Assembly: GCA_963971285.1 (NCBI GenBank)
Contig: OZ020250.1
Coordinates: forward strand, 13,190,499-13,254,498
Length of the DNA stretch: 64,000 nucleotides
Reading direction: 5' to 3'
DNA from: Astropecten irregularis
Taxonomy: Eukaryota; Echinodermata; Asteroidea; Paxillosida; Astropectinidae
A program made the translations under genes and the position numbers. Positions 17,955 to 23,900 of this stretch are shown here, piece after piece (positions within the stretch are counted from its first letter, which is position 1; each line of letters begins with the position of its first letter). Below the pieces are notes generated by a model. That model was given only the letters and a program-made list of their open reading frames with translations. It made no database searches and had not been told where the DNA came from.

Positions 17955-20900
17955 ATGAGTAACAAGCAGCCCAAACCCGTCCTCACAGGTCAGCGGATTA
18001 GGACCCGTAAACGGGGTGAGTGTACTTTTTACTAAATGAGGATTATTCAACTTCAGTCATCAGTTAATTTTTGGCTTATGTTGAGTCACAGAGCTCTGGC
18101 TACGGCTGCAAATAACACACAAACCCGTGGCAAACCACTAGCCAGTGGCTGCAGCCTTTTCCATAGACTTGTGTGTTAACTTGAGGCCCTAGCCAGAGAT
18201 GCAAGACAGTGCCTTTGGAATTTCATACTGGAATCTGTATAGTGAACTAGCACTGCACAGAACTAGCCTTGTACCTATGGACTTAGAGCATGATTTTAAA
18301 GAGGCAATGAGGCAAATGCCAGAAACACTGAGGTGATTGCCTTCAGTGCTTTGGAGAAGTTTGTACTCATTGAGTTGATTGTTTTATGAATCTTTTGAAA
18401 TTCATAATTTATGAGGACTACAGCAAGTATGATGACAAGCATTGGGCTATGAATCTGATGATTCCAACCCCTATGAAATCACTTATGCTGACTTGCTATA
18501 CACTGCCACACATTAAAGTAAGCCATAACAATTTACTATAAGCTAGCTTGACATGATGGTATTTATCGCAATACCGGATTGTCTCACTGAATGGAAAAGT
18601 TTAGAGGAACGAATAATTTCAGTTTCTCCTCATTTGTTTTGTTTTTTTTCCTCCGCAGATGAGAAAGAGAAATACGACCCCAATGGGTTTCGCGATCTTA
18701 TTGTGAAAGGCCTGAATAAAGCTGGAACTGATCTGGAGAAGGTGTCTAAATATCTCGATGCTACCGGTAGTAAGCTAGACTACAAACGCTACTGGGAGAC
18801 GCTCTTTGATATTCTTATCGCTGGAGGAATCTTAGGTAGGCACCTGATCGTTTCGAGGAATGTAGGCACACTTACACATGCTGCCCAGCAAAGTGACCAT
18901 AGTAATGAGTTATGAATCTTGCCTGTCTGATTTGTGAAAAAAAGTCAGAAAATTCAGTCAGGTCTGTTTTATTGAGCTGTTAAGCACAGAAGTTTTCCTA
19001 TGGTATTGCCTTGATTGGTAAAAACGTAGACTATTAGTCATTACATTCTATGCAGTTTTCGCTCCGAGTCAAAGCTGGTGTAGTGCTAGTCATGGTGTAC
19101 AAATTATGTGGAAATGTGAATGAAAATTTAGGCCTTTTTGTGTTGTCTGCCAGTTGTAAGATTTTTTTTTCCGAAAACAGCCCAGACTATATTTTCGGTT
19201 TCGTGTACGTCAAACAATAATTTGTGAGCAATAACCGCAAGTATGATGACAAGCATTGGGCTATGAATCTGATGATTCCAACCCCTATGAAATCACTTAT
19301 GCTGACTTGCTATACACTGCCACAGATTGAAGTAGGCCAGAATGCTGGTGTTTGCTTTTGGTTCAGAAATGTTCTCTGAAGAACGTGGAACATTTGTTAG
19401 GGGCACCAAAGCAATGACAAGGGTCACATTCAGTGTCTGGCTATAGAAACTGAGGCAATAACCAGGGCATCAATGTTCATCATTGTCTGTGTGTTGTCTA
19501 ATTTTCTTGCCACTAAGGCAGTGACCACGGGGAGGCAGTGACCAGGGACAGCAAGACAATGACTACGTTTATGAATCTGACCTTCCTAATATTTGGTGTG
19601 ATCCGGAAAACTCAGTCCAAGGTCCATTTCTGGGAGCTGCCGAGCACAAACTTTTCCTAAGCATGGGAACGCGTTGATTGGTAAAAACTTAGGTTGCTAG
19701 TCAAAATTCCATGTATTTATCGCTCAAAGCTAAAGCTGTGGTGGTACTAGTCACAAGCTATACACATGTGGAATTTCAAATGAAAAATTTGGGCCTTCTT
19801 TGTGTTGTCTGCCAGCTGTACAATTTTTTTTCGCAAACAGCCCCGACTGTTTTATGTTTCATGTACATCAAACAATTTATTTAACCAATTTAACTCAAAA
19901 CTCAAAACTTACAAAACTATTAAACTCAATGTGCTTGAAATGGAATTAATTTGAGATTCCTGTCTAAGAATGTACCCAGCAGGTGGTTACGCCTTGGAGC
20001 CTGAAGTTGACCGTCCCTGTCTATTTTGATCTTATCTCCACAGCCCCTGGGGGCACGCTCGTTGAAAATGACGATAAGACCAAGGTGTCCCTCAGCGAGT
20101 TCTGTCTGTTCTCGGCAGATGAGACTATCGAAGCGATTAAGGGTGTGGCCACGGTAAGAAACCTCACGACATGTGGTTTGTCTGTTGTTTTTGTTCATAC
20201 TAATGTGATACCTTTTAGATTTTTTTTTTATTGATTTTTTTTCTTTTAGTATTGAATGAAATGCATATTTAGTGAACAAAATTATTATATTGATATTAAA
20301 ATGATCCTTTGGATATAGCGGTATTTACATGGTTTCATGGCTTCTGACTGCCAAACGAACAAAGAAAATTGACTATCAGGGGATCTATCAACATAGGGTT
20401 GGATAGCTCAGTTGGAAGTGCGCCGGCATGGTATTTCGGTGGTTGCTGGTTCGAATCCTGCTTCAGTCAATTTTTCTTTGTTCACTTTTCACTAAAATTT
20501 GTTTATGATGACTTTAAAAGTGTTGGGTTTCAGGATATGAATTACAATCAAAGTTGTCACTAAACTGTTGCTACTGGTATGGACTGTACATTATCCGTAC
20601 AGATGGTGTTGTGATATTGCACAAGCAATGGATTTTAAGAGGCACTGAGGAATAACCAGGGACACAGGCAATAGCACTGAGGTGATCGCCTGCAGTGCTT
20701 CGGTGAAGTTTGTACTCTTAGAGCTGGTTGTTTTAGGAGTCTTTTGTAATTCATAATTTGTGATGACTACAGCAAGTATGATGACAAGCATTGGGCTATG
20801 AATCTGATGATTCCAACCCCTATGAAATCACTTATGCTGACTTGCTATACACTGTCACAGATTGAAGTAGGCCAGAATGCTGTTGTTTGCTTTTGGTTCT

Positions 20901-23900
20901 GAAGTCTTCTCTGAAGTTGTTGGGGGCACCAAGGCAATGACAAGGGTCACCTTCAGTGTCTGGCTATGGAAACTGAGGCAATAACCAGGGCATCAACATC
21001 ATTGTCTGTGTTGTGCCTCATTTGATTGGCACTAAGGCAGTGGCCATGGCCAACAAGACATGGGGCCCATTTCATAAAGCTCTGCGACGCGTCTCAACTC
21101 GATTTGCAACGCGTCGTGGTTGCGACGCGTCGCTTAGATGCGATGAATCCATAGAGTAAGGATGCGTCGTAACTCTGCGACGCGTCGTAAGTTTTATGAA
21201 ATCGGCCCCAGTAGTACCAAGAGAACTGCTGCCTTTGTTGCCTCTGTGAAGTTCTTGACCTGATAATAGGCACTGGACCCTGTCTTGTGCTTAAGAGCCC
21301 TCTGTACCATCTTCGTTGAGAAAGCACGTGCCCATTAGTTTACAAAATCCTTCATTTCTTTCTTTTTTTTGGAATTTATTTGATCAAATTTGTTTTTCTC
21401 TAATAGGTGTTTCAGAAGTTGATGTGGCGTTACAGGTACCTGGGAAAGAAATTTGAGGATGACGAGATGAAAAAGGTAGATATAATCATTATGAACTTAA
21501 CAGCACATTAATCTAATACATGGGTGACGTCAGTTGTACTGTGGCCGTGTATCTGTGGACTGTTCAGAGCTATTTCAATGAGGCAACAACCAGAGTACTG
21601 AGGTGATCGTCTTCAGTGCAAGTTCGTACTCTTGAGTTGATTGTATTTTGCGTCTTGTTTTGTGACTTTTATAATTTGTGAGCAATTACCGCAAGTATGA
21701 TGACAAGCATTGGGCTATGAATCTGATGATTCTAACCCCTATGAAATCACTTATGCTGACTTGCTATACACTGCCACACATTAAAGTAGGCCACAACACT
21801 GTGCTTCTAAGCTTGGGCAAAGGCCGCCTTTGATTCCAACATCGCAATAATTACCATCATATCAGATATTTATATATTTATAATTTTCAGGTATTTATGA
21901 CAATGCTGGAATCAAATTTTATTAAAAGTACGCCAGTAGTTCATAGCTGCGTAAAAACCCAAGTTAGTTCATCTTTCTTGTTTTCTTTGAAAAATATGCA
22001 ATTTGGCATACCTGAATACTTATTTGTGATTCTCAAGATTGGCAAGTCGACGTAATAAGGTAATACAGATGAAAAAGTGAGATATGAACATTCATGAACT
22101 TTAATGTGGAGTGAACAAATACATGCCATTCTTTGTACCAAGTAACTGTTGCATCAAAATACAGGTGCGGAGTCTGTTGCACTGTATAGTGAATGAGTAC
22201 TGCACAGTAGCCTAGTTGGTGTTGTGGGACTAGTCCAGCAGTTCACCAACCGCCAAGCCTGTTACATGCAACAGAATGCATCATATCAGGAAATCTGTGT
22301 TGACTGCTGAATGCAACAACGTGTAACAACCTTTACCGCTGGTGCATCCTGTTACAGGGTCAGAGTCAAAGGCCCTTTCATATTACAAAGAGAAGTTGTA
22401 GTTTGTTGATTTCCAAAATGTTCTCTCTTTGATGTAGATCCTGTCATTTCTGAAGTCCTTCTCCCCGTTAGAGCGCAGCAAGTTGGCTATGTTCACGGGC
22501 TTTCTCCTCAGCACCGGTGAGATCCCGGCCAACTGTCTGGAGAGCCTAGTCAATGAGACACTGGTCAAAGAAGGTCAGTAACTGTCCTCTCTTGATTATT
22601 TTAAGAGCCTCAGGGGATTTATGAAACTTGAGACTCCTTGTGGTGACGGGCTTCACAAAGCTACTGCATGATTTCTGATTGTGTCCCTATGGAAGCTGTT
22701 TCTTGTTTTTAGGTCAGAGCCCAAAGTACCTCAAAGTAACTTGCATTAACATCCCCCTGTTTCCATCAGGCCAGGTCCAAAGTCAACACACGTTTGCCCT
22801 TGTAACCCACATTCCCATCAGATAAGTGTTGAATTGTGTTTGGAGGAAGACGATTTGACTTGGAATATTGACAAACCTGCCGTCTTATGGATGATGTGAT
22901 TAAACCCGCTAGACTACCGAGGTTGGCTTAAGACACCAACGATGAAGTCACTTAGGTTTACTGACATAAGACGGCCATGCCCGAAGTCCACACACCTTTA
23001 AATTTGTTTGCCATGAAACCACTCGAATACCGCTTTATCCCAAGGATCATTTAAGATATGCGCAGCATTAGCAATGCAACAACCTGAGAAACACTACACT
23101 CAATGAGGATCCAGTCGGTTTCACTTGTGATTATTTGATGATTATGAATGATTATTAAAGTTTTTGACTCCTTGGCTATTTTGTGTGGCAGGGATATCCC
23201 TTGAGTTCTGTAAAATGATGTTCAGGGTTTGGCTGGATGAGAAGGAAATGAATAGCATTGGTAACTCCCTGCGCAAAGCCTCAATGGATCGCAGACTCTT
23301 GGTAAGTACACACTCAACAAGGACATCTTCAGTCTGTTCCACAAAAAATATGGTAAAAAATGTTACAGGAATCGTGAAAATGTTTGACTTGGTGGGGTGA
23401 GCTATTTGGAGATTGTTATGACTCAATTTTGGCCAGAATTTGTGAAGCAAATCTGTACTTAGGACCAGGGGGCCAATTTCACGGCCCTGCTTAGCACAAA
23501 AATTTGCTAACCATGTAATTTCTGTCTAAATTATAACAACATGATTAACAGTCAAATTTCCAATGTGTTATGTATCACTTGTGTTTGTTCTTTGGCTGTT
23601 GTTCGCTGACCATGGTGGTTTGTTTTATTGAGCAAGACATTTTGTGCTAAGCAATTTTTGAGTGCATAACAGCTCCATGAAATTGGCCACTGTTCTTGTG
23701 TATATGAAGCTCAATCTTCACCCATGGTCTGATAGATAAAGGAAGAGACTGGCTTTTGATTGTGAAGCTATGAATTGCAAAAACTTTGCTTAATTTGATA
23801 TAGCACAATAGTGGAACTATCTGTACCTGCCATTTTTGTACACGATGAAACTTTGTAGTGCATTGAAGTCTTTTACTTGGAATCTTGAGGTAACTATTAA

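Follow-up and report, generated by a model that had tools for sequence, protein, structure and literature searches.

Predicted SNORD88-type box C/D units in four consecutive introns of a BZW gene of Astropecten irregularis

A 64,000-nucleotide stretch of the Astropecten irregularis genome (the window; positions 13190499-13254498 on contig 14 of an assembly that comprises 475.7 Mb and 168 contigs) contains a BZW/5MP gene, and each of the first four introns of this gene carries, on the sense strand, one copy of a unit with the layout of a box C/D small nucleolar RNA (snoRNA). To judge from their sequence, the four units are very likely intronic box C/D snoRNAs of the SNORD88 type, predicted to guide modification of that cytidine of the 28S ribosomal RNA (rRNA) which corresponds to human C3701 (3680 in the old numbering). 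On this reading the guide is already known from other eukaryotes, as is, probably, its rRNA mark. Positions below refer to the window.

17955..22573, + strand: first five exons and four introns of the BZW/5MP host gene, from splice-site joining and Pfam; the gene continues to about 31589
17955-18015, 18659-18835, 20044-20153, 21407-21475 and 22438-22573, + strand: BZW exons 1-5, joined at splice sites
18422..18497, + strand: C/D unit A, BZW intron 1; stem AGCAAG/CTTGCT; SNORD88 model 28.9 bits
19236..19311, + strand: C/D unit B, BZW intron 2; C instead of A as first base of the stem; 25.5 bits
20771..20846, + strand: C/D unit C, BZW intron 3; 28.9 bits
21690..21765, + strand: C/D unit D, BZW intron 4; interior C to T, first stem base C; 25.0 bits
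18429..18435, + strand: box C (ATGATGA) of unit A, read from the sequence; identical in all five copies
18438..18447, + strand: predicted D' guide AGCATTGGGC of unit A, pairing with 28S GCCCAGTGCT; identical in all five copies
18449..18452, + strand: box D' (ATGA, a degenerate CTGA) of unit A, placed by SNORD88 homology; identical in all five copies
18456..18462, + strand: probable box C' (TGATGAT; GGATGAT in the ANP32 copy) of unit A, read from the sequence
18475..18482, + strand: putative accessory guide GAAATCAC of unit A, pairing with 28S GTGATTTC; identical in all five copies
18488..18491, + strand: box D (CTGA) of unit A, read from the sequence

Results

Structure of the units and their host gene

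The BZW gene was mapped by tblastn using a human BZW1 protein as query. An AG acceptor precedes exons 2-5 and a GT donor follows all five exons; the joined exon pieces match Pfam PF25504 (E 8.2e-65) and W2 (E 6.1e-20), which confirms the host gene named in an initial annotation of the window. Its description of a C/D-like unit in each of introns 1-4, on the sense strand, likewise agrees with the coordinates, the boxes and the exon map. A literature search for BZW2 as a snoRNA host gene returned no papers, and the papers listed for BZW1 introns and snoRNAs dealt with cancer and long non-coding RNA.

The four units are 97-100% identical. Over 79 nucleotides (nt), units A and C show no difference; unit B differs from A by one stem base, and unit D by that base and one interior base (C to T). 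The variable base of the terminal stem is A in units A and C and C in units B and D; the stem comprises 6 base pairs (bp) in both A and C, 5 bp in both B and D, and 11 bp in a fifth copy found in the ANP32 gene (see below). The AGCAAG/CTTGCT stem of the initial annotation, whose full AGCAAG arm is present only in A and C, stood for these two units and not for B and D, and its statement that the cores differ by one base holds, for the C to T in unit D, once the stem base is set aside.

Box C and box D lie near the ends of all five copies. Internally, ATGA was found at the putative box D' in each of them and, at the putative box C', TGATGAT in four and GGATGAT in the fifth. A scan for C box, D box and stem, with a motif set chosen by hand after the units had been seen, yielded nothing on the sense strand of 17955-31600 beyond the four units and a second kind of unit in two copies; the antisense strand of that interval gave no match, nor did 32001-64000 in either orientation. 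Counting both kinds, a C/D unit is present in at least six introns of the BZW gene. Predicted folding energies were below those of shuffled sequences (z -3.5 for unit A, -2.6 for the ANP32 copy and -3.6 for the second C/D unit).

A fifth copy in an ANP32 intron

Searching the genome with the unit yielded five matches from five scored candidates, the four BZW units and one more; such copy counts are lower bounds. The fifth copy (contig 14:2635999-2636073, minus strand) lies about 10.6 Mb from the BZW units and is 92% identical to them. Exons around it, on the same strand as the unit, encode a peptide matching ANP32 (best E 9.7e-16), and the intron borders were read by eye. Compared with unit A, 6 of 78 positions differ (five changes and one deletion); none of these falls in box C, D' or D, in AGCATTGGGC or in GAAATCAC, and one falls in box C'. 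Outside the unit, no ends shared by the ANP32 and BZW copies were seen when their alignment was inspected by eye. The initial annotation had considered that the unit might occur in many copies elsewhere with mobile-element ends; what was found is this single further near copy.

Elsewhere in the ANP32 gene, a near-perfect 70-nt hairpin (1076-1146 of the extracted stretch) gave a weak match to mir-2076 (44.8 bits against 90).

Relation to SNORD88

Above the Rfam cut-offs, the window contains nothing except three tRNA-like stretches. At a relaxed threshold, units A-D matched SNORD88 (RF00604) with 28.9, 25.5, 28.9 and 25.0 bits (E 0.0049-0.066, 10 kb), and the ANP32 copy scored 24.8 bits. In a genome-wide search with the same model, the five units held ranks 1-5 among the ten matches listed (E up to 10). 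The sixth to tenth matches showed no C/D layout by eye, and none of the ten reached 46 bits, the gathering score of the family. Among prokaryote controls, 12 of 14 also matched the model at this loose E-value, none of them over the cut-off. The unit, called unknown in the initial annotation, thus has SNORD88 as its nearest Rfam family.

Human SNORD88 is listed as guide of 28S Cm3701(3680) (PMC5597630, in excerpt). An antisense oligonucleotide against SNORD88, described in the available part of PMC10911272, is complementary to UGAUGUCCAGCACUGGGCUC, and judged from this oligonucleotide the guide core of the units matches that of human SNORD88; according to the same part of that paper, depletion of SNORD88 lowers fibroblast proliferation. 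The excerpts consulted also give the chicken snoRNA GGgCD10 a 5' (D') guide for the same site, paired with snR76 and HBII-180 (PMC2653536), and let Neurospora CD12, likewise paired with snR76 and HBII-180, guide 26S-Cm2159 from D' (PMC2780460).

Predicted pairing of the D' guide with 28S rRNA

In all five copies, AGCATTGGGC can form 10 bp, one of them G-U, with 28S GCCCAGTGCT. ATGA directly follows GGGCT in every copy; taken as box D', it puts the third C of GCCCAGTGCT, the equivalent of human C3701(3680), opposite the base at D'+5, five positions upstream. The initial annotation had placed the D' guide differently, ending at a CTGA; the guide is instead read here as AGCATTGGGC, ending at ATGA. 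CTGA in AATCTGATG was rejected as box D', being CGGA in the ANP32 copy.

rRNA was sought in the genome with a 28S domain IV fragment and with the two ends, 5' and 3', of 28S. GTGATTTCTGCCCAGTGCTC was found in two kinds of 28S-derived fragments, on contig 16 and contig 22. When either the third C or the C before it is taken as human 3680, Am3697 and Am3703 of the human list, as excerpted, also fall on an A in the contig 16 fragment, and this check fits either of the two adjacent cytidines equally. Several of the 28S pieces lie beside reverse-transcriptase-like sequence on contig 22, the end of which carries a 784-nt 28S start; nothing was found with the 28S 3' end in this search, which skips common words. 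At contig 22:16218000-16238000, where 28S fragments adjoin reverse-transcriptase-like sequence, the 3' part begins at TAGCCAAATGCC, as it does in R2-type insertions in ribosomal DNA. Among viral contigs, two 28S patterns and one 18S pattern returned 0, 1 and 0 stretches, the one being a chimera with phage-like genes.

Predicted pairing on the box D side

Near box D, GAAATCAC can form 8 bp with 28S GTGATTTC, one base from the AGCATTGGGC/GCCCAGTGCT duplex. Shuffles of the 25-nt box-D-side stretch paired equally well with the 30 nt beside the target in 25 of 5000 cases, in a test set up after the match had been seen. By analogy with known accessory guides, GAAATCAC looks like a putative accessory guide. 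Pairing of this kind beside the target is attributed to more than half of box C/D snoRNAs (PMC5389607, in excerpt) and has been proposed for Xenopus SNORD88 (PMC8522698, in excerpt).

A single D+5 target for the box D side was rejected, its register being inconsistent across copies; the guide next to box D proposed in the initial annotation found no single D+5 target in the sequences compared.

A second C/D unit in the BZW gene

22880..22974, + strand: second C/D unit, copy 1, BZW intron 5; terminal stem of 10-11 bp
26309..26403, + strand: second C/D unit, copy 2, a later BZW intron (intron 9 by exon count, with two exons placed by eye)

The two copies are 99% identical over 111 nt and are the only ones found in the genome. 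The 3' half of this unit resembles that of the first, and a similar ATGAAGTCACTTA stretch is common to both (46 of 5000 shuffles were as good). No target was found for it in the 28S fragments, the best candidate being GAAGTCAC, with one G-U, against the same 28S stretch.

SNORD35 (RF00211) was rejected as its family, at 27.4 bits against a cut-off of 36; moreover, CTCACGATGGTCTTC, carried by three clear SNORD35 units on contig 30 (10638652-10640692; 42.3-51.6 bits), is missing from the second unit. These three lie within about 2 kb on the same strand and are 80-90% identical.

Flanking sequences of the units

Over the 100 nt upstream, identity was 84% for A/C, 70% for A/D and C/D, and 50-56% for the pairs with B, against a random mean of 49% (the largest of 200 being 55%). 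Over the 60 nt downstream it was 92% for B/C, 73% for A/D and 61-68% for the other pairs, and at 61-160 nt downstream only B and C remained alike (75%). In the 25 nt directly upstream, A resembles C, and B resembles D. The pairing A/C and B/D given in the initial annotation thus extends over about 25 nt upstream and fails downstream, where A goes with D and B with C. Each of the four possible combinations of near-upstream type (A, C or B, D) with downstream type (A, D or B, C) is represented, so that exchange between introns, or repeated change, is needed to explain them; exchange between BZW introns is likely on these alignments. The sequences also support multiplication by duplication within the gene, as the initial annotation had suggested.

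Other features of the window

The three tRNA-like stretches (Rfam tRNA, 40-44 bits) are at 20397-20469, 42959-43033 (minus strand) and 63327-63399 (minus strand). That at 20397-20469, in BZW intron 3, is flanked by the short inverted repeats CAAAGAAAATTGAC and GTCAATTTTTCTTTG and therefore looks like part of a mobile element. In the same intron, 21060-21213 has inverted ends (GGGCCCATTTCATAAAG ... CTTTTATGAAATCGGCCCC-like, by eye) and looks like a DNA transposon of small size; beside the ANP32 copy (about 1588-1730 of the extracted stretch) a comparable end is seen. An 882-codon open frame at 5903-8551 appears by eye to encode a LINE-type endonuclease/reverse transcriptase, and at 16098-17186 an 18-base repeat forms a long array that is open in several frames.

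Discussion

We infer expression, processing, protein binding, methylating function and dosage effect of the units as follows. Once its BZW intron has been spliced out, each unit would be released, associate with the usual C/D proteins and direct fibrillarin to 2'-O-methylate the 28S cytidine equivalent to human C3701. The D' guide AGCATTGGGC would pair with GCCCAGTGCT, box D' ATGA setting the site through the fifth-nucleotide rule, and GAAATCAC may pair with the adjoining GTGATTTC as accessory guide. With four copies, a single pre-mRNA would supply one guide at a higher dosage.

Several observations weigh against this assignment. All five units (24.8-28.9 bits) score below the SNORD88 gathering score of 46, for which reason they are filed here as SNORD88-type and not as formal members of the Rfam family, and the fifth exceeds the sixth genome match (22.7 bits) by just 2.1 bits. 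The genome search scored 53 of 35845 first-look candidates, and its ranking can miss members, since the parallel SNORD35 search omitted the known 27.4-bit match. The hosts, BZW and ANP32, are not the human host of SNORD88, C19orf48. Box D' is degenerate and just 3 nt from box C', itself degenerate. The predicted fold of the bare RNA has internal pairs competing with the open C/D form; since these go beyond the simple C/D form, the folding energies say little about function. Finally, 65 of 2000 shuffled units pair equally well with a 140-nt 28S stretch, and the search for rRNA in the genome, which skips common words, found scattered fragments only and no intact 28S. Pairing length alone is thus not strong, and the case rests on the register, the family match and the conservation.

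The units could also be intronic C/D snoRNAs whose main target, elsewhere in rRNA or small nuclear RNA, is set by the box-D side GAAATCACTTATG, the SNORD88-like stretch being secondary. The box-D side is kept in all five copies up to one deletion, the second C/D unit shares the similar ATGAAGTCACTTA stretch, and in the ANP32 copy this side forms 11 of 12 pairs with 28S CAATGTGATTTC, with a G at D+5, as well as 8 bp with CAAAGTGA. We nevertheless regard this as improbable: the homology to SNORD88 is centred on the D' guide, position D+5 of the BZW copies has no pairing partner in this 28S stretch, and the distance from the pairing element to box D varies (GAAATCAC, 5 nt in the BZW copies and 4 nt in ANP32; GAAGTCAC, 9 nt in the second unit), so that one D+5 site cannot fit all units. 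A third explanation, a small repeat, mobile or retroposed, that merely resembles a snoRNA, is scarcely credible. There are several copies, one of them in an unrelated gene on the same chromosome, but five copies among five scored candidates in the whole assembly, all of them units, make a mobile-element family unlikely; the ANP32 copy has no shared ends beyond the unit by eye, and the units always occupy the sense strand of an intron and match a known guide family.

If the units are SNORD88-type guides, the role of their number may still be read in two ways. Possibly, although we consider it rather unlikely, only one or two copies are active and the rest are recent duplicates free of decay, with no meaningful dosage effect. 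The likeness of the A/C flanks upstream and of the B/C flanks downstream indicates that some copying was recent, and the units end 161, 732, 560 and 672 nt (by subtraction) before the 3' splice site, at no fixed distance; yet boxes, guide and stem are undamaged in every copy, one terminal base apart, although other flanks have drifted to chance level. More speculatively, introns may have exchanged the core repeatedly, as a patch that thereby stays identical (concerted evolution), the four equal copies acting as a dosage device, a suggestion about which we are doubtful; the occurrence of all flank-type combinations would place the exchange points in or beside the cores. Were it true, the device would lie within the gene of a regulator of translation initiation.

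The repeated intronic unit now has a likely host and a likely target. It provides an invertebrate-looking case of SNORD88-type guides with a putative accessory pairing element, and the four equal copies with mosaic flanks form a compact example of how intronic snoRNAs may multiply and stay alike. The effect on biology would be modest, a multi-copy version of a known guide and not a new kind of thing.

The closest known system is SNORD88/HBII-180, with which the units share the box C/D layout, a D' guide core AGCA[C/T]TGGGCT directly before box D', the same predicted 28S cytidine, intronic position and multiple copies. They differ from it, besides their hosts and lower scores, in having ATGA instead of CTGA as box D' and a shorter interior (77-78 nt against a model of 91 positions). 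Yeast snR76, chicken GGgCD10 and Neurospora CD12 are assigned the equivalent large-rRNA cytidine, the latter two from D', in the published listings on which this likeness is based; GGgCD10 has in addition its own 3' guide for 18S A429, which was not seen in the BZW units. Accessory-guide snoRNAs, such as yeast snR13 and, as proposed, Xenopus SNORD88, are described as having extra rRNA pairing beside the methylated stretch; the element of the BZW units consists of 8 bp of sequence and is likened to that of Xenopus by description. Like the BZW paralogs, cis-duplicated intronic snoRNAs of vertebrates sit in different introns of one host (PMC2653536, in excerpt). Within the same genome, the SNORD35 trio is also a local family, with three matches over the cut-off within 2 kb, but its members are 80-90% identical, compared with 97-100% for the BZW cores.

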